A stretch of 18,619 bases of DNA from Calocera cornea HHB12733. Its lineage: Eukaryota > Basidiomycota > Dacrymycetes > Dacrymycetales > Dacrymycetaceae. The notes below the pieces were generated by a model, which was not told where the DNA came from, did no database searches, and saw only the letters and a list, made by a program, of their open reading frames with translations. Shown here piece after piece: positions 161 through 18,619 of the stretch. Made by a program: the position numbers and the translations under genes. The DNA lies in assembly GCA_001632435.1 (NCBI GenBank), contig KV424190.1, forward strand, positions 1-18,619. The letters run 5' to 3'. The stretch's first letter is position 1; every line of letters starts with the position of its first letter.

Positions 161-352
161 CGGTCGAGACTCGTCGAGATTCGGCCAGTGTGGTCGAGAG
201 TCGTGCGAGTCTCGAACGAGTCTCGAACGAGTTCGAACGAGTTCGAACGAGTCTCGAACGAGTTCGAACGAGTTCGAACAAGATCGAACGAATCTCGAAC
301 GAGTGTCGACGAGATTCGTTCGAGACTCGTTCGATCTCGTTCGAGACTCGTC
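161..352. repeat. Tandem array A1 (10/11-bp units, with internal strand switch)
   Basis: Degenerate tandem units with the core CTCGAACGAG run from about 205 to 303. Around 305-312 (GTGTCGACGAGA) the orientation flips, and units with the complementary core CTCGTTCGAG follow to 352. The array is therefore partly an inverted repeat. It lies upstream of the helicase gene. Looser units (GTCGAGACTCGTCGAGATTCGG) form its left edge. Spacings are 10 bp for the GTTCGAAC type and 11 bp for the TCTCGAACGAG type. Confidence 0.9.
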
Positions 353-788
353 AACCCTGCCAATCTGCGAGTGTACCGGCAATTGCTCGCCATGCTCCCC
401 GGCGTCGTTATACTGGGTCTTGTGTTTGCCCGTTCTCGAAGGGTTCGGTCAGGACCTCCGTGGGCCCGTCTCTTCGCCGTGTCACATGTCCGAACTGGCA
501 ATTGCTCCTGCTAAAGCCACCGGGCTTCGCGAGAGGATGCACCCTGCTCCTGCACCTCCTCGACGTCTCACTGTACTCGTCACACCTTGACCTCGTTCTA
601 CACTCTCTTTGCCTTTCCAGGCAGCGTCCTCTCGAAATGGCTCTCTCTGGTCCTCCTGTCTGCGCCGGCATCACCTCTCTTCACCGCTATCACACACCTC
701 CCCACCGTGTCGCCAGTACTTGCCCGACCATATAACCGTGAGTACCCCAGAGCACATCGTCCTCCCGCAACCCACTGAATCCAAAGAA
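353..788. other. Helicase 5' region, no separate gene seen
   Basis: This stretch lies between array A1 and the first likely ATG of the helicase. It is pyrimidine-rich, with a splice-acceptor-like CCTTTCCAG ending at 620 and a GTGAGT donor-like site at 738-743. A 5'-UTR intron is therefore possible but not provable. The helicase frame stays open upstream of 789 as far as 609, without a convincing in-frame ATG. Confidence 0.4.
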
Positions 789-3700
789 ATGCCCCAGTTA
801 TCCTGCAACGTCTGCGAGGCCAAATTTGCCGCCAAATCCGAGCTGGACGGCCATCGGGCGCGGGAGCACCAGACGCACCTCAAGCTCGTCCTCCCCGACG
901 GCAACCCTTACTATGTCCCGCGCCTCAATGGACGATTCACCTGTCCCGTCAGCACCTGCAGCCACAACGTTGGCGATCCCGCAGTCCTGCACAGGCACTG
1001 GCGGAAAGACCATCAAGATACGATCTTTATCTGCGACCCCGCCCGGCTGCGCAGTAGCAAGGACTCCGACGAACCCTGCCCTTACCCGCCTCGCGCCTCA
1101 TCCCCTTTGACAGGGCGCACGTTGCAGCCCTCTTCCGAGGCAAACGGCAGGGCGGTCGAGCCGGGCGAGGGTGAGGAGGTGTGGGATGATGGTGAGGACG
1201 CGCAAGGGGCTGGGGATGAGGCGGAGCAAGAAGACGACGACGACGAGGAACACGAACACGAACACGACGACGACGACGAGGACGACGAGGACGACGACTC
1301 CTCGGACGATGATAAACCGCGCGCCCAGCCTGGTGAGCTAGCAGCGCTCTCCCATGCCTTCCCTGGCTCATCGCTCTCAGCTACCAGCGTGCCCCTGTCC
1401 TACCCGGCCTGGTCCACCCAGCTCGCCCAAGCAGGCACGTACACCGACCCCGTGCAGACGACCCTGGTCGACGACGACGTCCTCAAACAGCACGGTCTCT
1501 GTCTCGTCCTCCCCTTCCGGCTCATTGTCTGCACCCGCTGCAACTGCGGCGTGCCCGCACAGCTGCTCGTCGGCCACTGCAAGTCGTCCGCGCACCGCAA
1601 GGGCAGCACAGGCCATCTCGACGTCGCAGCCCTCCAGGCCCTTCTCACCTCGGAGCTCGAGCCCGCCAGCGCCGACACTGCCATCCCCCCGCTCGTCTAC
1701 ACGGCTGTGGACGTGCTGCCCAACCCCATACTGGGCTATCGCTGCAAGCAGCATGCCAGCGACTCACCCGACTGCCAGCGCCCGTACGCGTCCAAGACCT
1801 CCTTGCGTCTGCACCTGGACGAGCACCATCCCCGCACCGCCGGGCAGCACACCAGGGTCGCGCGCAATTCGGACAGAGCCTGGGTGCAGGCCTTTTTCTC
1901 CTTTAAGCGCTTTGTCGCCGGTCGCCCCTTCCTCGTCCAGCGTGCGCCGCTCGGCGCTACGAAAGCGGACAGTATCCCAGGCCTGCCCGCCTGTTTGGCC
2001 GAGGCCCGCAAGCTCGATGCGGAGCGCACACAGTTCACCGGCAACACGGTCGAGATGCGGGCCATAACCCATTTCCTCCAGCGCCGGCCCTGGAACAAGG
2101 TCATCGAGGGCCTTAGTCCCGTCGCCGTCGCAAGACTGGACGAGCGCGCGCTTGAACCAGGCGAGGAACCCCTCGCCGCGCTCGAAGTCGTCTGTAACCA
2201 GTACATGCAGACCCTCCACCGCACCACCATCCCCAGCCTAGACGAGGACAGCGTTCGCCGCCGGCTCGTCATCCCTTCTGGCCCGCTCACCCTCGGCGTC
2301 CATCACGGCGCCTACGTGAGAGAAGAGTCGACCACCCAGCTCGCACGCACGCTGCGGCATCTCCTCCTCACCGTCGCCCGTCTCCGAGGTCCCAGGGCAG
2401 AGGACTACCCCGCCTTTGACCTGTGCCTGTCCGCGCGGCAGGAGGTCGCGGCACAGGCCCTGCTCGACAAGCTCTTCCGGGCCCAACCCTGCACCCCAGA
2501 GCTCCATGGGTTCCTCCTCGCCCTCGTCACGGGCAGAAAAACGCAATCCGTCCCCGCCTGGTCCGCGCTTGAGCGCCTCCTCATCGTTGCCTGCTTGGGA
2601 GACAAGGGCGTCTTCAAGTCTGTGGCAACCATGAGTCCGATCGTCACCCGCTACCGCCACCTCCTGCGCGATGTACTATGCCAGGAGATTTGGAACCGGG
2701 CGGGCCGCAGCTACGCCAAGCAGCTCGAGGTCGTCACCGAGTTTGCGCCTTTCTACACCGAATGCCACGACTATCCGTACGACGCGATATCGATCGTCTC
2801 GACCATCATTGCCTCGGTCGTACACAACAAGCCGTCCCTGCCCGACACGATCTGGGACCACAAACAAGAGCACGTAATCTATCGCGGCCTCCCCATCAAT
2901 GTGCAGCGCTTCCGCACCGGCGCCGCCGCCATCGTCGCCCAGGCTGAGGAGACAATGTTCTCCCAGGTATGCCACGGCCTCGAATTCGCAGAGCTCGATG
3001 CCTACATCGATAGCATCCTCGACGGGCACAAGCGCGTCTTTGACTCGGTTGCCGCCCAGGAGGGCGGTTACTCCTTTTTCACCGACCCGAGGAACTCGGA
3101 GATGCAGCAGTTTGCCGACGCCCACCTCCTCATGTCCTCCTTCCTCGCCCACGACGCCCACGCCCCGGGAGCCAGGCCGATCTGCACCGACCGCAGCCAG
3201 GCGGAATACCCGCTCTCTGCGCATCTGGCGAGGAACTGGTTGGAACTGCTGCACGGTTGCAAGCGCGAGATCCTCACCGCCATGCACATCACCGGCGGCG
3301 GGGTCTGCAGAGGCACCGAGGCGATCAACTTTCGCCTCACCAACGATCTCTTGGGGGCGCGCACCCTGGCGTTCCTCGACGGACGAATGGTCTTTATGCG
3401 AGACTATCACAAGCTGAGCTGGAGCAACACGCCGAGCAAAGTCAGCCTCCGCTGGTTCCCGCGACGCGTCTCCCGCCTTCTCCTCTACTATCTCTTGCTC
3501 ATCCATCCAGCAGAGAAGTACTTTGCGGCAAAGTTCTTATCGGAGAAGGCTGCCAACCTTGCCAGCAATTACTTTACCGCTCATAACGAAGACCTCATAA
3601 CCTCGGCCAAGCTGAGCTCCACGCTCGCACAGCTCACGGAGAAGCACATGGGCGTCTGCCTCGGCCTCCGCGCCTATCGTCACATTGTTCAAGCGATCTA

Positions 3701-5858
3701 CCCCCTCGCCACGGGCTACCTGCTCGATGACACCGAGGACATCGAGCACGACAGCGCGCTCGACATGCAGTCTGGGCACACGGCCCAGACGGCGCGGCTC
3801 AGATACGACCGCAATCTCGAGGTCTACGCGCACTCGTCAGCCGCTCAGCTGAGCGAGATGAGGACGGGGAGCCTCATCTGGCACCACTTTATCCACCTCG
3901 GACCGCCCGTGAGCACGGGCAGCGTCTGGGGCGCGCGTGCGCCCGCCCTCACCCAACAGACATCAGCAGAGGTCTCCAGACCGCTGCTAACTCCGCGAGA
4001 CATACTCTGCCGCATGTTTGACGACCCGAACGCCGCCTTCCGATCGCCCGAGCAGGAAGAGCTTTGCTCGCTCCTTTCGCAGAGGGATAAGCACCTCCTC
4101 GTCGTGCTCCCCACTGCCGCGGGCAAGACCGCCTGCGCGGCCTATGCTTGGTGGAGCAACCCCGGGGCGATCGTCGTCTTTATCGCCCCGCTCATTGCCC
4201 TCCGCGACCAAACGCGAGCCCGGATCCAGGCCATGAAGGTTCCCCTGCACACGTGGAAGGCTGGCACGACCTTCTCCCCCGGATTCCTGGTGCTCAGCGT
4301 GGAGGAGGCGAGCAGCGCGGCGTTCCGCCAATGGCTCATGCCAAACGCAGAGAGCGGGCGCGTTTCGCACCTGATCTTTGACGAGGCGCACCAGCTGCTC
4401 ACCGGCGCCTCCTACCGCGGCTCGCTGAACCAGTTCTCCCGCCTCTCCGCCGCCGCGCTCCAGCTCGTGCTCCTGACCGCGACCCTTCCGCCAGCGCACG
4501 AGGCAGCCCTGCTGGGCAGGCTGAACTTGCCCGCCGACAGTGTGCACGTCCTCCGCGCTCCCTGCACCACCCGCACACAGCTCCGGCTGGATTTCATCCG
4601 GACACCAACGTCGCAAGACGCCCGACAGCGCGTGATCGAGTATGTCCAGAACCACGAGCCTGGGGTTGGATTCCGTGGAATGGTCATCACGCGTACGACT
4701 GAGCAGGCGCAAGAGGTCGCCCGCGAGCTCCAGGCGAACCTCTACTACGGGGACATGTCCACCGCGGAGCGCGTGCCTGTGCAGGAGCGCTGGATGAGCG
4801 GCCAGACAAGCCCCTGGATCGTAGGAACGACGGCGGTCGCCGAGGGAGTTGACCACCCTCAAGTTCGCTACGTCCTATTCCTGGAGCTCCCGCACGGACT
4901 CACGTCGTACGTGCAAGGAGCGGGCCGCGGTGGGCGACGCATCCCTCTCTGCGACGTCGTTCTCTTTTACTCGTCCGTCCCTGCCCAGAACGAAGACCAG
5001 GAGGACTACGCCGGCAAGAAACCGCTGAACCTCCTGATCGGGGCCACCGGTTGCCGACAGGCGGTCCTGTCGCAGCACTTTGACGGCCAGATTGCCACGT
5101 GCGAGACGATGGGCGTCCCGGTGGACAACCGCTGCGACCGCTGCCGGCAGAGCGAGCGGACGCTCAGCAAGCGCCGGGCGCTCACACCGCCGCCAGCTCC
5201 GCCGCCTCCTCTGAAACGTCCCGCCGTGGGCACGAGCATCTCTGCGGCCGCTCTCCTGCAGCAGGCAGCGATTGCTGAACAGAAGAGCCAGCTGCAGGAC
5301 CTCGAGCAGCTCCTCCACCGTCTGCGCCCGGCAGGTCAGCCGGGCATGCGCTGCTGCCTCTGCCAGTACGCTGTCGCAGAGGCGCACTGGCTGCGCGCCG
5401 CCCAGTCGGACGCCCCCCCCCTATCCCCCAACGAAACGAACCACAACTATCCCTTTCGATGTGCCTTGCACGGGCTGATCGTGTACGGTGCGGCTCTCGA
5501 GGACGGAGAGCAATACAAGCGGTTTGTCCAGCTGGACGCGTCTCGCCTGCCCAAGGACACGGTTTGTTACAACTGTGCCTGGCCTCGAAACGGCGGCGGT
5601 CACGTAAACCCATGCAACAGCAGGTCCTCCACCTTCCCGGACACGATCAAGATGCTCGCATGGGTGGTGCACCGCCGGCAGCACATGCTTACAGCCGTTC
5701 TTCAGCGCCTCGGCCATTCGACGCAGCGCATCGAGCAACTCGCCCGTGATAGGGAGTCGTTCAGGCAGTACCTCAACTTGGCGCATCCCTCCTTGGGCTC
5801 AAACTGGCTGGACGTTTTCCGGGCCCTCGCGGAGGAGCTGGGTTGGTTGAACGCATAG
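789..5858 (+). CDS. RecQ-like superfamily 2 helicase with N-terminal C2H2 and OrsD-type zinc fingers
   Basis: This is one 1689-residue uninterrupted frame; I chose the ATG just before the first zinc finger. Residues about 6-27 form a C2H2 finger (C-x2-C-x12-H-x4-H), and a second (C-x4-C-x12-H-x4-H) follows near 52. An acidic Asp/Glu/His tract spans roughly 130-175. Two C2H2-like fingers near 240-265 and 315-347, ending in HLDEHHP, resemble the OrsD/DUF3505 domain of fungal helicase-like proteins. The motor has Walker A PTAAGKT (1108-1114), DEAH (1198-1201), LTATLPP, a motif V-like AEGVDHP and motif VI QGAGRGGRR (1376-1384). A four-Cys RecQ-type zinc site follows (C1422, C1438, CDRC 1449-1452), and then more Cys pairs (CCLC, CYNC). 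The family is known for 3'-5' DNA unwinding and includes the subtelomeric TLH helicases of fungi; the exact role here is unknown. It has no intron, unlike most of its neighbours. Confidence 0.9.
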   Translation: MPQLSCNVCEAKFAAKSELDGHRAREHQTHLKLVLPDGNPYYVPRLNGRFTCPVSTCSHNVGDPAVLHRHWRKDHQDTIFICDPARLRSSKDSDEPCPYPPRASSPLTGRTLQPSSEANGRAVEPGEGEEVWDDGEDAQGAGDEAEQEDDDDEEHEHEHDDDDEDDEDDDSSDDDKPRAQPGELAALSHAFPGSSLSATSVPLSYPAWSTQLAQAGTYTDPVQTTLVDDDVLKQHGLCLVLPFRLIVCTRCNCGVPAQLLVGHCKSSAHRKGSTGHLDVAALQALLTSELEPASADTAIPPLVYTAVDVLPNPILGYRCKQHASDSPDCQRPYASKTSLRLHLDEHHPRTAGQHTRVARNSDRAWVQAFFSFKRFVAGRPFLVQRAPLGATKADSIPGLPACLAEARKLDAERTQFTGNTVEMRAITHFLQRRPWNKVIEGLSPVAVARLDERALEPGEEPLAALEVVCNQYMQTLHRTTIPSLDEDSVRRRLVIPSGPLTLGVHHGAYVREESTTQLARTLRHLLLTVARLRGPRAEDYPAFDLCLSARQEVAAQALLDKLFRAQPCTPELHGFLLALVTGRKTQSVPAWSALERLLIVACLGDKGVFKSVATMSPIVTRYRHLLRDVLCQEIWNRAGRSYAKQLEVVTEFAPFYTECHDYPYDAISIVSTIIASVVHNKPSLPDTIWDHKQEHVIYRGLPINVQRFRTGAAAIVAQAEETMFSQVCHGLEFAELDAYIDSILDGHKRVFDSVAAQEGGYSFFTDPRNSEMQQFADAHLLMSSFLAHDAHAPGARPICTDRSQAEYPLSAHLARNWLELLHGCKREILTAMHITGGGVCRGTEAINFRLTNDLLGARTLAFLDGRMVFMRDYHKLSWSNTPSKVSLRWFPRRVSRLLLYYLLLIHPAEKYFAAKFLSEKAANLASNYFTAHNEDLITSAKLSSTLAQLTEKHMGVCLGLRAYRHIVQAIYPLATGYLLDDTEDIEHDSALDMQSGHTAQTARLRYDRNLEVYAHSSAAQLSEMRTGSLIWHHFIHLGPPVSTGSVWGARAPALTQQTSAEVSRPLLTPRDILCRMFDDPNAAFRSPEQEELCSLLSQRDKHLLVVLPTAAGKTACAAYAWWSNPGAIVVFIAPLIALRDQTRARIQAMKVPLHTWKAGTTFSPGFLVLSVEEASSAAFRQWLMPNAESGRVSHLIFDEAHQLLTGASYRGSLNQFSRLSAAALQLVLLTATLPPAHEAALLGRLNLPADSVHVLRAPCTTRTQLRLDFIRTPTSQDARQRVIEYVQNHEPGVGFRGMVITRTTEQAQEVARELQANLYYGDMSTAERVPVQERWMSGQTSPWIVGTTAVAEGVDHPQVRYVLFLELPHGLTSYVQGAGRGGRRIPLCDVVLFYSSVPAQNEDQEDYAGKKPLNLLIGATGCRQAVLSQHFDGQIATCETMGVPVDNRCDRCRQSERTLSKRRALTPPPAPPPPLKRPAVGTSISAAALLQQAAIAEQKSQLQDLEQLLHRLRPAGQPGMRCCLCQYAVAEAHWLRAAQSDAPPLSPNETNHNYPFRCALHGLIVYGAALEDGEQYKRFVQLDASRLPKDTVCYNCAWPRNGGGHVNPCNSRSSTFPDTIKMLAWVVHRRQHMLTAVLQRLGHSTQRIEQLARDRESFRQYLNLAHPSLGSNWLDVFRALAEELGWLNA
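1223..1309 (+). repeat. GAC/GAG/CAC low-complexity coding tract
   Basis: A trinucleotide-like run of GAC, GAG and GAACAC inside the helicase gene encodes the acidic and His-rich linker between the C2H2 fingers and the OrsD-like region. It is likely a disordered spacer and could vary in length between strains. Confidence 0.8.
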
Positions 5859-5894
5859 CACAAAGGTAGACTACATTGTAATACATAGCAATCT
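5859..5894 (+). other. Helicase 3' flank
   Basis: This short AT-richer stretch follows the TAG stop and contains TAATACATAG. It is probably 3' UTR and ends where the type I repeat module begins. Confidence 0.4.
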
Positions 5895-6301
5895 CAATGG
5901 ACCGTGCAACACTTCAACGTCTGCAGCAGTCTGCAAGAGTCGTCGAGTCTCGTCGAGAGTCGTCAACACTCGTTCGAGACTCGTTCGAGAGTCGTCGAGA
6001 CTCGTTCGAGATTCGACGAGACTCGTTCGAGATTCGACGAGACTAGTTCGAGACTCGTTCGATCTCGTTCGAGATTCGTTCGATCTCGTTCGAGATTCGT
6101 TCGAACTCGTTCGAACTCGTTCGAGAATCGTTCGAGACTCGTTCGAGACTCGTTCGAGATTCGTTCGAGATTCGTTCGAGATTCGTTCGAGGGCGCGTCA
6201 ACGATGTGCTTTGCCCCCGCTGGGCGCGTCTCTGACAGTCTTGCGGCACCCGGTCGAGTTGCCTTGTCTTCTCCTCCCACCATGTCTGGCCCGGTGGACA
6301 G
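5895..6301 (+). repeat. Type I module, copy 1 (left flank, array A2, right flank)
   Basis: The left flank, CAATGGACCGTGCAACACTT and onward to CTGCAG, and the right flank, from CGCGTCAACGATGTGCTTTG to the start-codon context CCACCATGTCTGGCCCG, match 9048-9412 with only scattered mismatches. The two copies share the array between these flanks, including the unusual stretch CGACGAGACTAGTTCGAGAC. Copy 1 breaks off 20 bases after its ATG (6282). Copy 2 continues into the SNF2 gene. Confidence 0.9.
5936..6191. repeat. Tandem array A2
   Basis: About two dozen units are of 11 bp (CGAGACTCGTT, CGAGATTCGTT) mixed with 10 bp (CGATCTCGTT, CGAACTCGTT); the left edge is degenerate, with GTCGTCGAG spacing. 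This is the longest array of the six. It lies between the helicase stop and the kinase start, inside a type I module. Confidence 0.95.
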
Positions 6302-6320
6302 ATTCCCATTATATTGCTAA
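6192..6320 (+). pseudogene. Duplicated promoter and first codons of the SNF2 gene
   Basis: This copy matches the region just upstream of the SNF2 start at 9393. It includes CGCGTCTCTGACAGTCTT, the CT-rich leader and the codons for Met-Ser-Gly-Pro. Similarity ends near 6301, and the frame stops after 12 residues (ATG 6282, TAA 6318-6320). It is either a truncated gene remnant or a borrowed promoter that now drives the kinase gene with a short upstream ORF. The sequence alone cannot decide. Confidence 0.65.
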
Positions 6321-6395
6321 TCTTTTGATTTCGGAGCGATACAAGGGTGCGTGAGTCTGCGAGGCTTATTACCCCTATTATCACAGGCTGTGCTG

Positions 6396-6401
6396 ACGCG
6401 T
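6396..6401. promoter_or_regulatory. ACGCGT (MCB-like) site upstream of the kinase gene
   Basis: This is a perfect ACGCGT, the core of the MluI cell-cycle box bound by MBF-type factors in ascomycete yeasts. It lies 111 bp before the chosen kinase start. Function here is inference; the motif is short and also occurs inside coding regions of this window. Confidence 0.25.
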
Positions 6402-6511
6402 GCCCTCACACGTGATGTAGTCATGCGTCGCCCCTTAAGCGTGCGGCACGCGCGCCAGCGCACAGGCACAAGCACGACACTCTGCAACGACCACTCTCTC
6501 CGACAAAAGCC

Positions 6512-8983
6512 ATGTCCACCTCCACGCCGAGACGGTCAGCCCGACCTGCCAACCCGCCGACCAGCCCTGCCGTCGTCCATCCAATGTCCAACGACGAACC
6601 TGGGGAGCGGCTCCCCGAGCGCCGTCGTCGCCTTCTCGACTCCACCCCAATTCATGTCGTCTCGTGGGCAGACTTCCAAGAGGTCCTCCCCGCCCGTCGT
6701 TATCCGGACATTGATCTGGTGAAGGCGCTTGAAGCTTCGCCTGCGAACGCCAACTACAAGCAATTGCCAGACGGTGCGGATTGGAGCTCCACGACCGACG
6801 AAAAGGCCGTCTTCGCCCATCTCGGTCCCGTGTGCGACGCCATCATCGCGGCTTGCACCGCAGCGGCCCGGAAACATGACCCAAAGGCGCAGGCGACCCT
6901 CAAGTTTGTCCTCCAACCCAATCTGGCGCCTCATGACGTGTCCAAGCCGGACAAGAGCCGACCGGATATTGCGGGCATGGACGCGGAGCCCCACCCGCCG
7001 GAGAACGATCCTCTTTTCGTCGAGGCCAAGCCGCTCAATGGGCGCCGCAGTCCCCCCTCGTATCGTTGGATCTTCATGTCAATCACGGGCGAGTGGAAGC
7101 TCTATTGGAAACCAGATTTGGATGGACGGCTCAATGACGAGGTGAGTATCCTCGCCCTCACCCATTGGCGCAGGTCCGTCTGACGCTGGTCCCATGCAGA
7201 ACACCCAGCAAGTCGTGTGGGGCCTCCTGCACCAGCTCTGGACGAGCCCGGACCGCCTCTATTCCTTCGCCATCACATGCGAAGGATTCCACGCCCGCGT
7301 CTGGCTGGCTCATCGGGAGGGGGTGCTGGTTTCGGACGTCATCCACATCCATGACGTGCGCTCCCCGCTCTGCCTCGCAAACCCCGCTCACGCTCTTGTA
7401 GAACAAGGCGGACTTCCTCCGCATCCTGGCCACGTTTGCCTTCGCGACCCGCGAAGATCTCGGCTGGGATGCGAACATGCAACGCCTCGGCAAGGGTGCG
7501 CTCCGCGACGCCGCCCTCACACTCGCGAAGGACTATTGGACAGAGTTCCCCGACGAGCAGGGACCGAAGCTGTGGCTGCCAATCAAGCTGGAGATTGCGA
7601 GGAAACAGTACGTGCTCGCCGCCCTGATCGCCGACGGACGCGCGCGGGCGATCTGCGGCAGCGGCTGCCGCGTATTCCTCGCATACGAGTTGCAAGGTTC
7701 AGACCTGTGCCCTTTGCGCCTCGCAATCAAGATTGTGTGGCGCAACGCCACGCGCGACTCCGAGGCCGCCACGTTCGCTCAGGTCAAAGAGGCAGTGTTG
7801 AGGCTCCCAGACGTCACCGGGGAAGTGTTCAACCAGCATTTCACCAACATCAGCGCGAGCCAGGACTTCGAGGGCATCAGCATCTCCAAGCGCGCCCTTC
7901 GCGGGGCAACGATCGGGAACTGCCACTTGATCACGCGGCGCCAACCCGCCCCCGGACCTGTCGAAATCGTAGGATCGCACCGCTATTCGTCCCCTGGCAA
8001 TTCCGAGGCCGTGGGGCCGCGCAAGCGCCCCAGGATTGAACCGGTCCCAGCGGTCTCGAGCGCGGATGGGCCGTACATGCTGACAGACCGTGTGTACTCT
8101 GCCCTCGTCATGGACTCCGTCGGACGCCCTCTGCACCATGTGCACAACCTGCACAAGGTGTTCAAGGTCCTCGCCCATGTCTCCAAAGGTATGCCCCTGA
8201 CCTCCTTGCGCGCCCGAACCTCGCTCATGTGTCTTCCTTTCCCAAGGCCAGGCTTTCCTCCACCGCGCAGGCAAAGCCCACCGCGACGGCTCCCCCGCAA
8301 ACATCCTAGTCGCGGAAGAAGACATCGGTCTCCTGATGGACTTTGAGTTTGCCAAGACTCTCTTCAGCGACGAAGGGACGCACGGAGAGCGTACGGTGAG
8401 CACCACTCTCGCCCCCGCCGCACCACACCCCTGACCTCGCTCTCCGCAGGGGACGCCGGACTTTATGCCGGTCGAAGCGTTCAAAGCACAGTTCTTATGG
8501 AGGCAATATGGGTATGGCGAGACGCCTACCCCGTTCCGTTGGCACTCGGGTCACGAGATTGAGTGGCATATGTGGATCATGGTCTGGATGCTCTACAAGC
8601 ACGTGGCCAAGGATGAGGCGGGGCGCACAGAGGTGCGCGCGCAGCGGACCGCAGGGCTCAACCGGATATTTGGTCCAGACACCGCCGAGGAACGCAAGAC
8701 CCTTCTCTACGAGCGCACCCCTCTCGCAGACCTCGGCCTCGACTTTGAGGCGAACACCACCTTCTTTACCGCCATGCGCCGCGTCGCCCAGCTGGCGCTC
8801 AAGATCGTGAACGCACACAAAGAAATGGCCAAAAAGGAACTCAACCAGGCGAACAACCTGGTGGTTTGGACGCCGGTGTTCGATGAGAGCCACCAGGCTT
8901 GCGAGTGGCTTGCGACTCTGTTCGCAGACGTGGAGACGGTGCCGCTGGTTCCCCCGCCGGCAGAGGGTGCGCAGGAGGCGTGA
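6512..8983 (+). CDS. FunK1-type fungal-specific protein kinase
   Basis: I propose five exons: 6512-7141, 7200-7355, 7402-8188, 8247-8395 and 8450-8983, giving 751 residues. The introns are 58, 46, 58 and 54 nt with GTGAGT, GTGCGC, GTATGC and GTGAGC donors, and all joins keep frame. The kinase core is split and divergent, as is usual in FunK1. LAIKIVW supplies the ATP lysine (K372). HRD (536-538) with N543 is the catalytic loop. DFE (556-558) replaces DFG. GTPDFMPVEAF corresponds to the activation-loop and APE segment. A basic GPRKRPRIEP in the insert before the C-lobe may be a nuclear signal. The predicted activity is Ser/Thr phosphorylation; substrates are unknown. An in-frame extension upstream of 6512 is open but has no in-frame ATG, so a further 5' exon is possible. 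Confidence 0.87.
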
Positions 8984-9086
8984 GGGTGGGTAGACAGACA
9001 TGCCTTAGACGGCAGACACACTTGTATCGCGTTTGTATGCTCAAATTCAATGGACCGTGCCACCCTTCAACGTCTGCAGAAGTCGG

Positions 9087-9289
9087 CGAGACTCGTCGAG
9101 ATTCGTTGCGACTGGTCGAGACTCGTTCGAGAGTCGTCGAGACTCGTTGGAGATTCGACGAGACTAGTTCGAGACTCGTTCGATCTCGTTCGAGATTCGT
9201 TCGATCTCGTTCGAGATTCGTTCGAACTCGTTCGAGATTCGTTCGAACTCGTTCGAGATTCGTTCGAGATTCGTTTGAGAGTCGACGCG
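9087..9289. repeat. Tandem array A3
   Basis: Mixed 10- and 11-bp units (CGAGATTCGTT, CGATCTCGTT, CGAACTCGTT) share their order over most of the left half with A2. The array lies between the kinase stop and the SNF2 start, about 100 bp from that ATG. Confidence 0.95.
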
Positions 9290-9334
9290 ACCAGAGTCTG
9301 TGGGCGCGTGAACGATGTGCTTTGGCTCCGCTGG

Positions 9335-9340
9335 ACGCGT
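9335..9340. promoter_or_regulatory. ACGCGT (MCB-like) site upstream of the SNF2 gene
   Basis: A perfect ACGCGT lies 53 bp before the SNF2 ATG, within the right flank of the type I module. The equivalent position in the other module copy reads GCGCGT, so the site is not conserved between copies. Confidence 0.25.
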
Positions 9341-9392
9341 CTCTGACAGTCTTTCGGCACCCGGACGAGTTGCCTTCTTCTGTCCTCCCACC

Positions 9393-12300
9393 ATGTCTGG
9401 CCCGATAGACAGCTATGTACGCCTCACCAACCCCGGACGCACCGCGAGTCGAGAGGAGGCGATGCATCTTGTGCGCGAGCGCCACAACGCAATGATCAAA
9501 CAGGCGGAGAAGGGCGCGTTCAAGGATGCGGGCAAGCGGCTGGTCCTTGGCCCCAGCGCAGCGGTTGCGCGCATAGAGGACGAATATCGCACTCGCCCGA
9601 CTTTCGACTGGATCTTGCCTTCGACCGATGTCATCGAGCAGGGTATCCAAGCGAAGAAGGACCGTGGGGACGCCATGAAGCAGGCAATGGTACGCGCTGG
9701 GAACGAAGACGAACGCCGCGCCTTGGCATGGGAAACTCGTGTGACTGAACGCGAGATTGCCAATATCGAAGCGGCCATCGGACTAGCGCCAAACAAGGAG
9801 GTTGAGGGGATTGAGGATCTGAAGTGGGTAGCTTTGACCTCGGATGTCGACACTGATTGATGACTGGTTGCGTCAGTGCCATGCGCGCCTTGCAGGGCGC
9901 CTCGCAGACGGGCGATATCACAGGTGCGCTCTTTCCTTGACACTGACGGGAAAAGGACTGACCTGGCCGTGCAGAACAGTGTTTGCGTGCTATGGAGCGG
10001 CTCGGCGTCAAGCCCGGCCAGAAATGGCCGGTTGGGATGAAAACGGCGTTGATGCCGCACCAGATATTCGCCGTCTGGTGGATGGCGCATCAGGAACGGC
10101 ACACCCCGTGCGTCTCGGATTGTTGCCCGAGTGGGCTCCCCTCACTGACACTTGTTGGGGCCAGATACCACGGCTCCTTCTTGGCGGACGACATGGGCCT
10201 CGGCAAGACGGTCTCCGGGATCGCAGTCATAAAGTACACTCTCCCCACACGCCCAAAGAACAAGCCCGGGACGCTCGTTGTAGCCCCTGCAAGCATCATC
10301 ACTCAGTGGACGCAAGAGGTTCAGAAGCATTCAAATCTCACCGTGCTAGCGTGGCGGGAGCGCACGCGCGTCGATGGGTCCAACGGCCTCAGATTGCTCT
10401 CACAGTTTGACGTAATCGTGACGTCGTACGAACAAATGGTCATTGAGTGGGAGGCGAAGGGGCCGCTCTACCGGGCCCACTGGTTTCGCGTCGTGTGGGA
10501 CGAATGTCAACTCCTGCGAAACAAGATGAGCAAACGGTCGCAGGCGTCTTGCAACCTCAAGGCTCAGTACCGCCTCCTCATGAGCGGCACTCCGATCCAG
10601 AACAAGCTCGAGGAAGCGTTCCCCCATTTCCGCACCCTCGGCCTGCCGGTGCTGCGCACTGAGGACGGCTTCCATGACGCCATTGGCGGCAAGACAGGCA
10701 GGGCCGGCCCCGCGGCGTTGTCGGTGGTGTACAAGGCGCACCTGCTTCGCCGGGTCCAAGAGACGCTGTTCGAAGGCGAGCCAATCGTCAACCTGCTACC
10801 GAAGGAACAAGTCGAAATCCGCGTCGTGCTCGGGCCGGAGCGCGCCGCCGAGTACCGCTCCAGGCGCGCAAAGGATAAACGCGAGTGGATCGAGCGCACG
10901 TACGTCCCCAGTTTGGTAACAGCGACCTGCACTAAACAAGCCGGCACAGGAAAAAAAGCAAGGGTGCTAAGCCGTCCGCTACCGCCGTACAATGGGGTGC
11001 GTGCCTTCTTCCTCGCGTATCAACCCAATTCCTGATGCCTGTCCAGCTCGTGCCCGTCTTCACGAGAATCGCCGCTGGCTCGACCATCCCGCGATCCCGG
11101 GCCCAAAGGACGACGCGCACCAGGGCAGGGACGATGAGGAGGCGCAAGAGCACCTCGCATATTGGACAGAGCGAGAGCATGACGCGGGCATCGATGTTGC
11201 CATGCAGGTTTGTCCCGCCCCACCCGCCCCGCGACCGGACGCCACGGGCTCACTTGTTTGTCACAGGCGCGTGCACACTGTTGCGTGTGCCAGGACCCGT
11301 GGCGCGCTGGGCAAGACATGTTTGTCACGCCCTGCAGCCACGTCTTGTGCATCGGTGCGTTCCCAAACACCGCCTTGCCCTCGCGCTCACCTCGTCCGCA
11401 GGCTGTCACGATAAGAAGCGAAACAAGGCCTTGTGCCCTGCGACCAGGTGCAAGCGCGAGAAAGGGGCAACCCTCGCTGTGACCGACAGCTTCCTGAAAG
11501 TCGCAGTGGGCCAAGGCCATTTGCAGGCGCATGTCCAGCGCGCCCTCAGGATGGGCCTGTGGAGTGAAAAGGTGCGTAATCCCCTCCGTGTTTTGAGAAC
11601 CCAACGCTGATGAGCCCCAGCCCACGGTGAGCTCGCTCGCCGGGTTCCTCCCTCCTGGACTGCGCACTGACGGCTTCTAGGCGCTGTGGAAGAGCATGCA
11701 GTCCTATTTGCGCCAGGACCCAGGGGTCAAGTTTGTCGTGACCTCCATCTGGACCGCCCCACTCGACATCCTCGACGAGTGCTTCAAAAGCAAGCCTGAG
11801 CTCAAAGTCGGCAGGTATCAAGGAAACACCCGCCCCCATGTGCGGGAGGCGCTTCGGGAGCGGTTTGTATCCTCGACAAGAGAGGACTCGATCAACGTGC
11901 TGCTGCTGTCGCTGCTGAGCGGGGGGGTGGGGTGAGTGCCGTTTCCGCGCGTGTTTCCGTGCAGGATCTCTGACCAATTGAACAGCCTGAACCTCGCCGC
12001 AAAGGAGGCAAACGTTGTCATGTACATCTATGAGCCGGATTACAATCCGGCAAACGAGTGGCAAGGTGGGAGCCTGGCCTGCCTGAGAAACCGACCCGCG
12101 CTGACTGACGCGCCCAGTGGAAGCCCGTGTCCATCGGATTGGGGCCGAAAACCACCGTGCGTGGCCGGTGCACACCATGTCGGTATAGAGTGCCTGACCC
12201 AATGTTGTAGAGGTGACGATATGCCGGCTGATCACGGCCGACTCTGATGAGGAAGGGATCCAGAAGATTCAAAGGCTCAAGGTGTGCAATACTGCGCCCC

Positions 12301-12530
12301 GGGTTGGGAGGGGTGCGCGCTGAGCACGCCAACAGACAGCCATTGTTGAGGGCAGCTGGGGAGAGTCGGACGAGGAGGGGGTGGCCCTGCAGCACTACCA
12401 AATGTGTGAGTATACCTATCCGCCGTGAGCTTCGATCCACCGCCTCACGAGCTCAACAGTGTTCGACGCGTACGATTTGGAGGACCCTGCCGAGGAGCCG
12501 CCTAGAACATCCAAACGGCGCTTGGAGTAG
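9393..12530 (+). CDS. Rad5/HLTF-like SNF2 translocase with embedded RING finger
   Basis: I reconstruct 15 exons: 9393-9823, 9877-9923, 9975-10107, 10165-10899, 10950-10996, 11047-11207, 11267-11354, 11402-11571, 11621-11626, 11681-11931, 11986-12065, 12118-12156, 12211-12281, 12336-12405 and 12460-12530. Total coding length is 2400 nt, encoding 799 residues. SNF2_N follows a 180-residue leader: ALMPHQ, DDMGLGKT (212-219), DECQ (316-319, in place of the usual DEAH) and SGTPIQNK. A RING-HC follows (C523, C526, C541, H543, C546, C549, C559, C564). Helicase_C then contains SGGVGLNLA and ARVHRIG (719-725). This order, SNF2_N then RING then Helicase_C, is that of Rad5, Rad16 and HLTF, nuclear ATPases with ubiquitin-ligase activity in DNA-damage tolerance. 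Which subfamily it belongs to is unresolved. Exon phases close perfectly, which supports the model. Confidence 0.88.
11621..11626 (+). other. Predicted 6-nt microexon of the SNF2 gene
   Basis: CCCACG is bounded by CCCCAG on the left and GTGAGC on the right. It separates two introns of 49 and 54 nt, each with a CTGA-type branch sequence. It adds Pro-Thr in frame. Skipping it would also keep frame and would need one 109-nt intron, twice the local norm. Confidence 0.6.
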
Positions 12531-12779
12531 AATCACGAGCAGAGATGGTAATGGATCCGAGTTTAGCGATGGGTGGGCCGGTTGTTCGGGGGGGACGCGT
12601 ATAGCAATGAGTACAGAGAGTAATGGATCCGGGTTTACCTATCGTTTGGGAAGGTGTTGGGGGCACGCCTGGGGATGATTGCCGCGGCCTACGAGACCTG
12701 GGAGACCCCAAGACGGTCCTACACTTCTGCAGAAGTCTGCAAAAGTCGGCAAGAGTCGACAGAGATCGGCAAAGAGTCC
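12531..12779. other. SNF2 3' flank with short direct repeat
   Basis: No gene is seen. TAATGGATCCGAGTTTA (from 12549) recurs as TAATGGATCCGGGTTTA (from 12621). From about 12723 a degenerate 10-bp periodic stretch (GCAGAAGTCT, GCAAAAGTCG, GCAAGAGTCG) leads into the type II module. The 14-bp perfect palindrome ACTTCTGCAGAAGT is at 12723-12736. Confidence 0.6.
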
Positions 12780-12856
12780 GACGCGCCTTTGCACCTCGGG
12801 CAACGTGTGAGAAATCGCCCAGTTTGCTGCACGCCAAGGGAGGTTTCCCGAAGTCC
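12780..12856. repeat. Type II flank element, left of A4
   Basis: GCGCCTTTGCACCTCGGG (12783-12800) is followed by GTGAGAAATCGCCCAGTTTG and GGGAGGTTTCCCGAAGTCC, and it abuts the array. The same order of blocks is present at 15168-15246, so the flank and array move or were copied together. Confidence 0.85.
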
Positions 12857-13023
12857 GTCGAGACTCGTTCGATCTCGTTCGAGACTCGTTCGAACTCGTT
12901 CGAGACTCGTTCGAGATTTGTTCGAACTCGTTCGATCTCGTTCGAGACTCGTTCGATCTCGTTCGAGACTCGTTCGATCTCGTTCGATCTCGTTCGAGAC
13001 TCGTCGAGACTCGTCGAGAGTCG
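12856..13023. repeat. Tandem array A4
   Basis: About 16 units alternate between 11 bp (CGAGACTCGTT) and 10 bp (CGATCTCGTT, CGAACTCGTT), many in pairs. The array lies between the stops of two convergent genes, so it is not part of an ordinary promoter. Confidence 0.95.
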
Positions 13024-13032
13024 GGTAGAGTC

Positions 13033-13120
13033 GGTTGCGCCTTTGCACCTCGGGCCAGAGGTGAGAAAACGCGGAGTTTCCAACAGTGGGCAACGGCAAA
13101 AAGTTGGCAAGAGTCTGCAG
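13033..13120. repeat. Type II flank element, right of A4
   Basis: GCGCCTTTGCACCTCGGG recurs exactly at 13037-13054, followed by GTGAGAAAACGCGGAGTTTC. A4 is thus bracketed by direct copies of the same element. GGCAAGAGTCTGCAGAGGTC, with CTGCAG at 13115-13120, closes the module. Confidence 0.8.
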
Positions 13121-13226
13121 AGGTCTGGGCTAGATGTTTGTCTGGAAGGGTTTGGGAGCTTGGGTGAATGTGACGGGTTTAGGGTACCATTGATTACAGT
13201 GTACATGATCGACTAGTGCTATGTCA

Positions 13227-15049
13227 CTATCCCTGGCGCAATCTACCACTCCTCCGGGGGGGGGCATCGTCTCGTTCCTAGGGGAAGGCAATCAGTCGTG
13301 AGGTGATGAGGTAGGGGTGGGGGCTTACCTGTCCCGTTCGGTTGCGCTTGCGGCTACGAGTGGTGTCATCGTCTTCCTGATCTGTTGAACGAGGGGACGT
13401 TTGGGATGCATCGTCCGCGTCTTGGTCGTCGTTAATGACCGCGGCGCTCTGCGAGACGGGGTCAGAATCGCCTCCGAGGGCATGAGGGGGGAACACTTGC
13501 CTTGGGCGGGCGGCGGCGGCGGCGGCGGGTGGAAGGATGCCAGAGGACGATCGGCCCCTTGCCTCCCGTCTTGTGCTGCATGAGCACCTCGGAGTTTCTC
13601 CGGGTTGCAAGTGCGAGCACTTCCATTTGTTTTTGCAGTCTGACCTGCATCGCCCATGCCGCACCTGAGACGCGGGTCAGCGGTCAGTGAGCGGGCGGTG
13701 AGCAATGACACGTGCTGGAGGTGGTAAACTCTTGGCGGTCCAAGCGGGGAGTTGCCGCTCGGGAGGGTGCTTCCTCATGGTCTAGCCGGCGCGGATGAGT
13801 GTGGGTCGAGAGGGGGGATCGAGGGACGCACCAGAGCCATCATTCCACGCGCTGCTCTCCTCGGCGCTATCCTCCTCGGCAGTTTCCTCCTGCGCCATGC
13901 GCTTGCGCTTGCGGGGTTCCTTCGCCTGCTCCGGGACCCGGCAAATCCCATGCGCATAGCCCATTACGATACAAGAGATGCAGGGCACGGTGGTGGGACC
14001 CTCCTGGCCGTCTCCAAAGCAGATGCGCACCCGGCCACGGCTGGCTGACTTGATGTGGGCACACCGATCACACTGTTGGAGAGATGTCAGATTTGCCAGC
14101 ACGGTCAAGGCAACACGCAGCGGGCGCACAGGAGTGGGGTTGACATAATAGGGCGGCGGCTGGGGGAACCTGCCGTTCGTCTGTGTCGGGGCTCAGTGCA
14201 TGATCGGGTGGGCCAGGAGTGGGTAGTACTTACAGCAAGTTGGTAGTAGTCGAGATATTGTTTTTTTGTCCACACGCCGGCGCAAGACTGCGCAAGCGTC
14301 ATGATGCTCTTGCCCTGTTATGGGCATCAGCATCGGGTGCAAGTGACGGACGACGGGGTGACGTACGTCTTCCGGAAGCGGCATGTTTTGGTAGCCTTCC
14401 TAATACCGAGCGTCAGTGCAGTGTGCGGGATGATGGGAGGTGGGACTCACCAGGTGCAGGCGCGAATAGAGAGCGCACAGCTCTAGGTATCCATAATTGG
14501 GGTCGTCTTGGCTGAAGCAACGCTCTCGATCTACCCTGGACGGTCCCGCCTGATACTCCTCGAGGATGGAGATGAGCTCTGGCCCAAGAGGTTTATCGAC
14601 TTGCGACAGGGGTTCGGGCCAGTCAAGATCGGGACTCTGGATCGTGTGTGTCAGACAGGAAAGGGCCGGGGAGAGGTAGGGGGGGGGGGCACGGCTCACT
14701 TTCTGGCGTGCCGCATCCTGCTCAGAGATGAACCAAGTCTGAAAGACCTGACCCATCCCTTTGGCGGCGTAAGCAGGAATCCCGCATGTTTGCAGCAGAG
14801 CCGCCTGCTGGTTTACTTCTTCGATGATTTGGATCTAGAGGGGGGCGGTGAGCACGGCCTGCGCCCGGGTCAATGCATGGCACGCACCCTCCACTGATGG
14901 GTTGCTTCGGGGTCGATCTTCAAGTAGGCATCAAACTCTTCTATGGATGGGTGCTCCAACGAGCAGGTCATTGTTGCAATGAAATCCTATTTACGAGCGT
15001 CAGCACTCGTCGCCGGTTCGGGGAGGGTCATTACCTCTGGGGACATCAT
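13227..15049 (-). CDS. Unknown protein with Zn2Cys6-like cysteine cluster and acidic, NLS-rich tail
   Basis: Proposed exons in gene order: 15049-15035, 14986-14888, 14834-14700, 14636-14451, 14399-14367, 14314-14234, 14180-14130, 14072-13832, 13781-13710, 13664-13501, 13448-13329 and 13277-13227. Total length is 415 residues. The N-terminal 200 residues (start MMSPEDFIATM) are helical and I do not recognise them. Residues 201-244 hold C-x2-C-x13-C-x12-C-x2-C-x9-C, a stretched version of the fungal binuclear zinc cluster, followed by basic EPRKRKRM. A helical stretch (MQVRLQKQMEVLALATRRN), a poly-Arg run from CGC repeats, an acidic segment and RSRKRNRTG follow. This fits a nuclear DNA-binding protein, but that is inference. 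The donor after 13710 (GTCATT) is weak and the intron at 13449-13500 is GC-AG, so exons 9 and 10 are the least certain. Confidence 0.68.
13449..13500 (-). other. Probable GC-AG intron
   Basis: On the minus strand the donor is AAG followed by GCAAGT, the usual context of rare GC-AG introns. A TTCTGACCC branch site and a CGCAG acceptor follow. Removing it joins the coiled-coil frame to the acidic tail frame at phase 0. No GT donor nearby does so. Confidence 0.6.
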
Positions 15050-15092
15050 GGTGATGGTGGGGGCTGTAGAGCGTGTGAGGAGGACGCGGTTG

Positions 15093-15098
15093 ACGCGT
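15093..15098. promoter_or_regulatory. ACGCGT (MCB-like) site upstream of the Zn-cluster gene
   Basis: A perfect ACGCGT sits 44 bp before the minus-strand ATG at 15049, within ACGCGTCAACC when read in gene orientation. The same CGCGTCAAC string borders other arrays in this window. Confidence 0.25.
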
Positions 15099-15142
15099 TA
15101 GTGTCCGCGGGTGCTTTTTGAGAGAAAGCTCCGTCCCGTCAG

Positions 15143-15246
15143 ACCTCTGCCAAAGTCGGCCAAAGTCTGTTGCGCCTTTGCACCTCGGGCAACATGTTAG
15201 AAAAGGCCCAGTTGCCTGCACGTCGAGGGAGGTTTCCCAAAGTCCG
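15143..15246. repeat. Type II flank element, left of A5
   Basis: GCCAAAGTCGGCCAAAGTC leads to GCGCCTTTGCACCTCGGG (15172-15189), then GGCCCAGTTGCC and GGGAGGTTTCCCAAAGTCC. The block order matches 12738-12856, with roughly one mismatch in five bases outside the core. Confidence 0.85.
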
Positions 15247-15429
15247 TCGAGATTCGTTCGAACTCGTTCGAGATTCGTTCGAACTCGTTCGAACTCGTTC
15301 GATCTCGTTCGAGACTCGTTCGAGATTCGAACGAGATTCGTTCGAGATTCGTTCGAGATTCGTTCGAGATTCGTGAGACTCGTTCGAGTCGTTCGAGTCT
15401 CGACGAGATTCGTTCGAGATTCGTCGGGA
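15246..15429. repeat. Tandem array A5
   Basis: Mixed 10- and 11-bp units (CGAGATTCGTT, CGAACTCGTT, CGATCTCGTT) are present. One unit is in reverse sense (GATTCGAACGAGATTCG, about 15325) and there is a short irregular stretch with 9-bp spacing near 15373-15395. The array lies between the start of the Zn-cluster gene and the end of the JmjC gene, both on the minus strand. Confidence 0.95.
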
Positions 15430-15626
15430 CTCTGCAAGACTCCTGCAGGAGTCTGTTGCGCGTTAGGGGATTCAAGCAACTGGGGCGACGTCTGACAAAA
15501 CGCCAAGTTTGCACACCCAGCTGGTGATGGTGTGAAGGTGGTTTGTGATGAGGGAATATATTGGCTAGGCTCACGATAGTACTAAGTGGACAAGCGGCGG
15601 GATAACAGTACAGATGAGGGACAGAG
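15430..15626. other. Right flank of A5 and 3' region of the JmjC gene
   Basis: The 16-bp perfect palindrome GACTCCTGCAGGAGTC lies at 15438-15453. It is followed by GTTGCGCGTTAGGGG and ACGCCAAGTTTGC, which look like a decayed copy of the type II flank. No gene is seen. Confidence 0.55.
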
Positions 15627-17661
15627 CTACTTGAGACCTCTTGGCTTCTTTACGGTGTGGGAGGCCAACTGGATTTTGCTCGGCGTGAGATTCCTTGCCT
15701 TCATGATGGTATTGATGTTCTGGCATCCTCGGGTGGCCAGTCGTAAAAGATGCGAGAAATTGGGCGGGAAGGGGTGCAGCTTCTCCTTTTGGGTGTACTC
15801 TGTCATTGCAGTTTGGGCGGCCTCACCAATCGTGGAGCCGCTCTCAATCAACTCCAAGTGTCTGGCGATGGTGTGGAGGCAGAGGTAGAGTTGGGAGATC
15901 TCCTTGTATTCCGTTTTTGTTCGGATGTCCCGCTCGGGCACGTACGCGCAGGGATTGGTGATGATGTTCCGCAGTGGGTCGAGGGCGTTGTCAGGGAGCG
16001 AACGTGCTTCGTGGCCATTGGGAGACAAGCTGCTTGCAAATTGGACGGGCGTGCTGTACCAGGCATAGCGCTCTGCGTTGGTCACAGCCAGCCCGGCGAT
16101 GTGCTCGACCTTTAGCGCGACCTCCATCAACGGAAAGCATCTTGGAAAGTCCGCGTGCATCCCGGCCATGATAGACTTGCAACCCTTGTCGGCGCGACTG
16201 TAGACGGCGTGATACATCAAGCTTGGCTGGAAGCTGCAGAAGGAAGAGGTCAACGAGTGTGTGAGGTTGTGAAGTGTGAAGGCTCACAGCTGCGTGCCAG
16301 GTTCGAGCCACACGTAGTGCCATGTGCCGTACAGGCGCATCTGGTCTTCATCGTACTTCATCAGCGCAAGGAGGAGTGTCAGGGCTTCGTCGCGAAGCGT
16401 TGCCTCTCCGAGCGCGTTGAGTCGGAAGTAGAACCAAACTTTGTCACCCTGCTTCTGGTTTCCCCAGGTGGCCCGGTTCCCGGCGTCTTGGTGCACCCCG
16501 GTGAACGAGCCGTCTTCCGCCATGACGAGCCAACCCTGTTCTCTCAGTTCTGAACGCTCAACGATAATGGGGTCAGTTGCATCCCCGCCGACGACCATGG
16601 CGTGGGCGACAGTGCGAGTGAACAAGGCCCTGAAGGAGAGGTCAACAGGGGGACAAGCAGGCGTCGGAACCACCGAGACTCACCGGAGATGTCTGGGCCA
16701 GCCGTGCGCGGGGTAGGGACACTCTAGGCAGTTGAGAGTGTCAGGGTCGTCCGGGGTGCGCGCCAAGAATTGTGGCATCGTGAGGTACGTGTGCAACGGA
16801 GTGGGTTTGTTTTGCTTTCCAAGTTCGTCGTCCTGCGGAAGCCGAGCTTCCTTGAACATGCTCTGGGCCAGGGAATCCATTGCTGTGTGTAAGCGTCAGT
16901 CGGTGGGTGGGTGGGAGGAATGAGTGAGACGTACATGTGAATGTGTAGAGGCGCTCCCGATCGAATATAACACCTTCCTCCTCGAGCATCTCAAGTGTGG
17001 GGGGACGGCCCTCCCAGCTCTCGACGCCGGTGATGAGGATCATGTACTGCTGGCTGAGCAGGTCTTCGAGTTCGCGCGCGGGTAAGGACTGACTGGGGCT
17101 GCTGATGTGATATCGCTTGAACTTGGGGTCGTCGCACGCTGGCTTCGCGATCTTGGCAAGGAAGTCGACCCGGTTTGCAATGATGCGCTGTAAAGCATGT
17201 CAGCACTGTCGCATACATGAAGAGGAGCTTGGGCTCACCTGCTTGGGTGTGCAACGTTGGCTTGAAGGCGGTTCGGGAGGTGTCCATTTGAGCGTCGGCA
17301 CGTGGTTGGCGGGCAGACTCAGTGGTGGTGAGGCGGCCTTGGGTGGGGTGGGGGAGGGCTGCGGGGTGCTTGCCGGGACGGGAGTACGAAGGTCGTCGAG
17401 CGAGCGAGGGGCGGGCCGCTCGGGAAGGCTGAGGGCAGACTTGGGGACTTGCGGCTTCATGTCGCGCATGGCGGTGTACGATGCAAACCACATAATGTTG
17501 CGATCTTGATAGTCCGGGTCGAGCGGGTGGGGACAGTGATGGAGGGGGTGCCCAAAGCCACCGCAGTTGAAGCAGAGGTCGTCAATGGACTCTGGGGTGT
17601 CCATTGACATATCGTGGAGTGCGAGAGCGAGATCGGCGGAATCGTCAGCAAGGGCTGGCAT
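15627..17661 (-). CDS. JmjC-like Fe(II)/2-oxoglutarate oxygenase with N-terminal CCHC zinc knuckle
   Basis: Five exons in gene order: 17661-17239, 17187-16935, 16882-16684, 16629-16288 and 16233-15627. The introns are 51-54 nt with good splice sites, the joins keep frame, and the product is 607 residues. Residues about 30-43 form a CCHC knuckle (C-x2-C-x4-H-x4-C), known for binding single-stranded nucleic acid or protein. A Pro/Ser-rich linker follows. The catalytic part shows the JmjC pattern: FTGVHQDAG, with H338 and D340 as iron ligands; GDKVWFYF, where Lys may hold 2-oxoglutarate; then LEPGTQLFQPS and YHAVYS, with H414 as the third ligand, 76 residues on. Known JmjC proteins hydroxylate or demethylate histones and other proteins in the nucleus. 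The substrate here is unknown. The 190-residue helical C-terminus is unrecognised. Confidence 0.78.
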
Positions 17662-17762
17662 AGCGGAGGGACAGCGGCGACGGGGTTGGACAGGATGAGG
17701 AGAAGGGTGCACGGCTCGCCTCCTTGTGTGGGTTGTTTTGGACCCGTGAGGACCCTGAGACG

Positions 17763-17768
17763 ACGCGT
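17763..17768. promoter_or_regulatory. ACGCGT (MCB-like) site between JmjC gene and A6
   Basis: A perfect ACGCGT within GACGCGTCAACAACG lies between the JmjC start (17661, minus strand) and the array. It is the fourth such site found next to an array in this window. Confidence 0.25.
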
Positions 17769-17780
17769 CAACAACGGGTT

Positions 17781-17956
17781 CGAGACTCGTTCGAGACTCG
17801 TTCGAGATTCGTTCGAGATTCGTTCGAGACTCGTTCGAGATTCGTTCGAGATTCGTTCGAGACTCGTTCGAGACTCGTACGAGATTCGTTCGAGATTCGT
17901 TCGAGACTCGTTCGAGATTCGTTCGAGACTCGTACGAGATTCGTTCGAGACTCGTC
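17781..17956. repeat. Tandem array A6 (16 uninterrupted 11-bp units)
   Basis: There are sixteen consecutive 11-bp units of CGAGAYTCGTT with no 10-bp unit. Position 6 is C or T in the order C,C,T,T,C,T,T,C,C,T,T,C,T,C,T,C. Units 9 and 14 end in GTA instead of GTT, and the last ends in GTC. The array fills the gap between two divergent genes. Confidence 0.97.
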
Positions 17957-18055
17957 GGAGGAGTAGTGGAAAGTGATGGAAGGTCATAGGGACGACACTT
18001 TTTTGGGCGCGCGCGGTCGCCAGTCGTACGCTCAGCCTGTTGGATTGACACCACC

Positions 18056-18619
18056 ATGTCCGACAAGGTGTACTCCCACGATTGGAAAGAGGCGCTAGAT
18101 GAATGGCGTGGCTTGCATATGCTAGCAACGACATGGCCAGAACAATGTGGCGTTGTGTTGGAGAGTAAGGAGGTGAAGGACAGCCTCACGGTACGTGGAC
18201 AGGAGGTGCACACGATGACTGGTTGCTGATCGTGCACGCGCAGGCAATCGCCAATAGCTTGATGGACGCCGATCTCTACGAGGAGCTGAGGAGGGTGGGG
18301 GGGAGGATCATACTTGCGTTGACGCCCGAGACGAGGTTGCGGCTGACGGAGTATCTGAGAGAGGCCCGGGCCAAACGAAGGATGATGGAGCTGGTTGCCA
18401 ACATGGAACGGCTGGGGGTGGACCAGGTCACCGGCAACCAAGTCGAGGGCGTTGGGACGAGCAAGGAAAAGGTACGTTCCTGGCTTTGACCAGTCTGGTG
18501 TACGTCTGACGAGTCATGAGCAGGATGGCGAGGCAGAACATATGACGAGGCTGCGTCAAGAGCACGACGCGCTGCAGAAGGAGCACGACGCGCTCAAGAA
18601 CGATCACGACGCGCTCAAG
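18056..18619 (+). CDS. Coiled-coil protein of unknown function (5' part)
   Basis: Three exons are visible: 18056-18190, 18244-18471 and 18524 to the window end, where the gene continues. Introns of 53 and 52 nt have GTACGT donors and phase-0 joins. The start context, ACCACCATGTCCGAC, is like that of the SNF2 gene. About 120 mixed helical residues, with basic EARAKRRMMEL, precede a run of exact heptads of the type EHDALQK. The protein is probably a coiled-coil dimer or scaffold. I do not recognise the family. Confidence 0.75.
18560..18619 (+). repeat. 21-bp coding tandem repeat (heptad units)
   Basis: GAGCACGACGCGCTSMAGAA-type units repeat at least three times up to the window end. They encode EHDALQK, EHDALKN and DHDALK. 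One unit equals one coiled-coil heptad with Leu in a core position, so copy number can change without breaking the helix register. Confidence 0.9.

Follow-up and report, generated by a model that had tools for sequence, protein, structure and literature searches.

Tandem repeat arrays in the intergenic gaps of a Calocera cornea contig: candidate binding-site clusters of a recurring gene block

Fungal intergenic minisatellites consist of short units repeated head to tail, with uniform centres and degenerate edges, and they are subject to local duplication. Tandem arrays of binding sites are also found in the Drosophila gypsy insulator, where a retrotransposon carries the array. Other systems have also been described: in the aflatoxin cluster, AflR sites with TCG and CGA half-sites occur cluster-wide in promoters at -80 to -600 (PMC10834605); yeast subtelomeric anti-silencing regions (STARs) contain Tbf1 and Reb1 sites (PMC3060084); and Agaricus bisporus carries subtelomeric RecQ helicase genes (PMC7473861).

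Here we describe a locus of Calocera cornea HHB12733 that recalls each of these systems in part. The window—the whole stretch of DNA analysed—is a complete contig of 18,619 bp (C276) from a 32.1-Mb genome in 302 contigs, and it holds six arrays (A1 to A6) of 10/11-bp units. Being built of units at least about 10 bp long in head-to-tail order, the arrays are minisatellites by form, and they share with the fungal examples the short units, the uniform centres with degenerate edges, and local duplication; they differ in that a family private to the locus occupies each gap of a gene block, while a second block has another family. The gypsy insulator offers a likeness in its tandem array of sites (putative sites in the window), although that of gypsy is borne by a retrotransposon.

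With AflR, the parallel lies in cluster-wide promoter sites with TCG/CGA half-sites; the window differs in its spacing, in its tandem arrays, in having an array also in a promoterless gap, and in showing no recognised zinc-cluster domain. The AflR motif TCGN5CGA matches the window 10 times against 10.4 expected, which is chance, and 4 of the 10 matches lie in arrays. A Zn2Cys6 protein was not found in the window cluster—the model of gene 4 gave no match to zinc-cluster families at E up to 10, and its cysteine spacing, judged by eye, departs from the classical Zn2Cys6 spacing. STARs resemble the window in having clusters of binding sites (putative in the window) between genes and repeat-rich DNA near helicase genes; the window has no match to doubled TTAGGG at up to one mismatch, the doubled repeat being the only form searched. 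Telomere repeats were found in the genome only at C181 and C271, and the window contig is not anchored. Gene 1, which has the DEAD and Helicase_C domains of a RecQ-like helicase core, resembles the subtelomeric RecQ genes of A. bisporus in being RecQ-like and in having variable surroundings; it differs from them in matching OrsD and in belonging to a multi-gene block, and the copies of the block on C70 and C124 sit tens of kb inside their contigs. No fungal element of this kind was known to the first-pass annotation, and our search of the titles and abstract openings of the open-licence literature found none either.

Genes and arrays of the window

Six genes are recognised in the window, a count that rests on our own gene models. 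Gene 1 (789..5858, + strand) is one long reading frame starting at the ATG at 789 and encodes an OrsD region together with the RecQ-like helicase domains; gene 2 (6512..8983, +) encodes a fungal-type protein kinase (PF17667). Gene 3 (9393..12530, +) encodes an SNF2 helicase with a RING-like region and has an uncertain 3' end: our model stops at 12428, a TAG is read near 12530, and a deposited model matches over only 60% of ours. Gene 4 (13260..15049, - strand) has a cysteine-rich stretch, and both its model and its 3' end are uncertain. Gene 5 (15627..17661, -) is the zinc-knuckle protein CALCODRAFT_522024, deposited as CCHC-type; our model equals the deposited protein over its full length, and Pfam finds the zinc knuckle weakly. 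A JmjC-like reading of its HxD...H stretch was abandoned, as Pfam returned weak zinc knuckles only. Gene 6 (18056..18619, +) is present as a start that runs off the contig, ending at the contig break in a 21-bp coding repeat (18560-18619). Genes 2 and 4 have no paralogues in a genome search, where both match the window contig only.

The array limits were set by us from repeat-finding and from the letters. A1 (161..352) lies upstream of gene 1 and has mainly - strand units followed by + units. The other arrays are assigned to the + strand: A2 (5932..6191) in the gap between genes 1 and 2, A3 (9087..9287) between genes 2 and 3, A4 (12856..13023) in the convergent gap of genes 3 and 4, A5 (15245..15442) between genes 5 and 4, both on the - strand, with a few inverted units, and A6 (17776..17957) in the divergent gap of genes 5 and 6, where practically all units are 11 bp. 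Arrays stand upstream of all six start codons at roughly 100-440 bp—about 437 bp (A1), 321 bp (A2), 106 bp (A3), 196 bp (A5), and 115 and 99 bp for A6, which faces two genes. A4 lies in a gap without promoter. An earlier reading of the locus had put one array of the same family in every gap, and this is borne out: no gap of the window is empty, and 152 of 153 core words, counted with a looser pattern, fall inside arrays, the remaining one inside gene 3. The pair pattern TCGTTCGA-N2,3-TCGTTCGA matches the window 57 times and is absent from each of 200 dinucleotide shuffles.

Among 95 parsed units, 26 read CGAGATTCGTT, 23 CGAGACTCGTT, 13 CGAACTCGTT and 11 CGATCTCGTT, the remainder being rarer. 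Both CGA and TCG are kept in 89 of the 95, and the four main types (73/95) vary solely between these two triplets. Units occur in both directions within A1 and A5, and across the window array direction does not track that of the genes. By our reading of the letters, array edges are degenerate and array centres uniform. Two structural ideas were set aside: the mean unit of 10.6 bp is suggestive of helical phasing, but 15 of 16 units in A6 are 11 bp; and a palindromic dimer site is not indicated, the stems of window units being no longer than shuffled ones (874 of 3,000 shuffles do as well as the main unit). Palindromy stands out only in an unrelated 22-bp unit on C284, which 95 of 3,000 shuffles reach.

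Four of the arrays form two pairs with duplicated flanks. A2 and A3 have in common a right flank of 111 bp at 89% identity (6191..6301 and 9302..9412, both +); the A3 copy extends into the beginning of gene 3, and the end of the A2 copy repeats the start-codon region of that gene. The A2/A3 duplication left behind a remnant of the beginning of gene 3, ATGTCTGGCCCG, at positions 6292-6310 in the second gap. A4 and A5 have in common a stretch of 129 bp at 88% identity (12775..12903 and 15164..15292, both +), made up of 83 bp of left flank and the first units of each array. Whole-gap alignment gives the A2/A3 arrays an identity of 0.932 against 0.903 and 0.930 for the flanks, and the A4/A5 arrays 0.926 against 0.829 and 0.817. 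The idea that arrays are better conserved than their flanks is thus not clearly upheld in A2/A3. Trimmed, the A2/A3 arrays align at 0.976; arrays without common flanks also align at 0.876-0.971, and therefore neither the A2/A3 nor the A4/A5 identity can be read as constraint.

The six gaps make up 19% of the contig. The first-pass annotation had argued that random insertion would not be expected to give one array per gap; this holds for random placement of six arrays (P 6e-7) and with all six forced to be intergenic (P 0.009-0.013). Because two array pairs share flanks, however, the arrays do not represent six independent events, and with four independent intergenic events the probability rises to 0.23, so the one-per-gap pattern alone is not striking. 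The remaining oddity is the lack of an empty gap together with a family almost absent elsewhere.

A genome-wide search, run with the pair pattern rather than with a profile, returned 62 matches: the 57 of the window contig and 5 in a single array of 78 bp on C114 (C114:1414-1491), near the start of that 107-kb contig. With 57 of 62 matches here, the family is almost confined to the window locus; a spread into genes, which would have spoken against the earlier reading, was not seen with this pattern. The surroundings of the C114 array are gene-poor, no gene being seen before about position 4970. The stretch around it (C114:1-2991) has a GC content of 0.52 and a CpG observed/expected ratio of 0.62, against 1.06 in the window, and CpG decay there is possible. 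When the whole window served as query at the DNA level, the best candidates were matches to the acidic-codon repeat in gene 1 and to a single helicase stretch on C25; hardly any of the contig's DNA is matched elsewhere in the genome. That search scores best candidates only and skips simple repeats, and the pattern count is therefore the safer guide. Outside the genome, 36 viral-contig stretches have one match each and a stricter pattern matches 3 prokaryote contigs, which we take as chance; plasmid sequences searched for the repeat pattern gave none.

Copies of the gene block and their arrays

Homologues of gene 3 (SNF2) and gene 5 lie tail to tail, as in the window, on four other contigs: C25:9359-19714, C284:8070-12919, C124:27983-32288 and C70:91470-98889, the two genes being about 6 kb apart on C70. 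C25 also has a gene-1 homologue in the corresponding place, 41% identical over its main stretch. Among the matches listed, C8 appears for gene 3 but not for gene 5, and C23 for gene 5 but not for gene 3. Other contigs match SNF2 only, and some of these matches may be to ordinary SNF2 genes. Seven contigs carry block genes; within the stretches examined, arrays occupy most gaps in two of them, two others show a single array, and three show none.

The second contig with arrays in most of its gaps is C284, where the family differs from that of the window and has units of 19-22 bp. Arrays with 21-bp units stand at 7271-7353 and 7419-7481, upstream of the gene-5 homologue, and at 10201-10279 in the convergent gap. 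One with 20-bp units (13652-13798) lies upstream of the SNF2 homologue; in addition, four loose units, first spotted by eye, occur near 2612-2691. All 21 matches to AGTTTCCCGTTT at up to two mismatches fall in four intergenic places (13,032 of 15,463 bp searched), the gaps here being our reading without full gene models; the array places have low codon scores, which is a noisy measure. At least one further gap, at about 1392-1620, has no core match. When the three arrays that TRF detects are aligned, they agree throughout a run of 11 contiguous columns but in only one of the other 10; this pattern was reached by 1,199 of 200,000 shuffles (P 0.006), in a hand alignment of TRF consensus units with a 12-column stretch chosen by us. 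The invariant core beside a diverged spacer is the strongest hint of function. A stricter pattern for the C284 family has five matches genome-wide, on C284, C80 and C237; the C80 array adjoins, by eye, a copy of the C284 SNF2 start. C284 also carries an unrelated 22-bp array, TCCAGAACATATGACATGTTCA, at its contig end (15054-15398) and a 33-bp repeat in apparently coding sequence.

The remaining copies are poorer in arrays. C25 has a 28-bp array (20609-20783) about 0.9 kb upstream of a helicase match, and all four genome matches to its exact 19-base core lie in that array; directly after it, 3,217 bases are read as N (20784-24000). Other examined gaps of C25 have no array. C70 has a 20-bp array downstream of the gene-5 homologue (97716-97824) and none in the two other stretches of the three examined. 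At TRF score 80 no array was found on C124 (three stretches), C23 (two) or C8 (one). Since the block homologues of C25, C124, C23 and C8 are without arrays in most or all of the stretches examined, arrays are dispensable between block genes. On C137, a 14-bp array, AACCCCCAAAACGG, lies beside a broken helicase stretch (11417-11529), with a 24-bp array inside that stretch; by eye, the 14-bp motif appears singly upstream of the SNF2 and gene-5 homologues of C124. As a control, 55,933 bp of other sequence contained two arrays of period 10-40 at score 80, that of C114 and a CT-rich one, and a few more at score 60, for example a 17-bp array on C44. The control comprised C114 and twelve loci; it was not random, several loci having been chosen via repeats or helicases.

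Binding sites, neutral spread or boundaries

We tentatively favour reading the arrays as clusters of protein-binding sites that act in cis and belong to the recurring block, with a site that could differ from copy to copy. For the window this would mean CGA/TCG half-sites every 10-11 bp, and for C284 AGTTTCCCGTT every ~19-22 bp; in both families the units have the look of sites that are retained while the spacers vary freely. Their binding factor would control the expression of the whole block jointly and might also separate neighbours—that gene 4 encodes this factor is a guess. The arrays would have grown via unequal exchange or slippage, local duplication would have spread them between gaps, and copies inside genes would not be tolerated. 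The C25 unit, yet another one and found only on that contig, speaks for such sites, as do the filled gaps and near-confinement of the window family, the core matches of C284 with their invariant columns, the triplets kept in the window units and the distances from arrays to start codons. Neutral spread of a minisatellite is nearly as likely: in a repeat-prone region, slippage or unequal exchange would enlarge the arrays, duplication would carry them between nearby gaps, and selection would purge genic copies, with no function involved. It accounts readily for the duplication of A2/A3 and A4/A5 along with their flanks, for the probability calculated with four events, and for the degenerate edges and uniform centres that we read in the arrays. 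The block copies without arrays, the C114 array in its gene-poor stretch and the second, unrelated array of C284 agree with it as well, and these same observations count against binding sites, as do the promoterless gap of A4, the lack of agreement between array and gene direction in the window, and the lack of phasing, of excess palindromy and of clear extra conservation. Neutral spread does not, however, predict that in three gaps of C284 a core stays invariant next to a spacer that has diverged, nor that every gap of the window is filled.

The first-pass annotation had proposed boundary or insulator elements, that is, bound arrays that would part neighbouring transcription units in any direction. 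Arrays in tandem, convergent and divergent gaps of the window, and on C284 and C70 in convergent gaps as well, are consistent with this, and A4, in its promoterless convergent gap, fits it; the corresponding convergent gap on C25 and C124 has no array, however, and we consider a boundary role improbable. Foreign DNA or a misassembled contig is less probable still: the contig is small, it barely matches the rest at the DNA level, and genes 2 and 4 are without paralogue, but its repeat also occurs in the 107-kb C114, homologues of genes 1, 3 and 5 lie elsewhere in the assembly, and the arrays differ from one another.

A broader form of the binding-site reading would have a family of multi-gene blocks in which a copy is marked between its genes by its own family of tandem binding sites. 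Site and factor would co-diverge, leaving every block in control of itself alone, much as if private operator sets had an equivalent in eukaryotes. We regard this as unlikely. If the arrays are block-private control sites, the genome would offer natural replicates of one block, with and without arrays and with different sites; these could then be used to ask by what route one cis-element comes to stand at each promoter of a cluster, and what course a regulator and its sites take as they diverge following duplication. Should the arrays be neutral, the locus would demonstrate that local duplication, combined with selection against genic insertion, can mimic a designed one-per-gap pattern.
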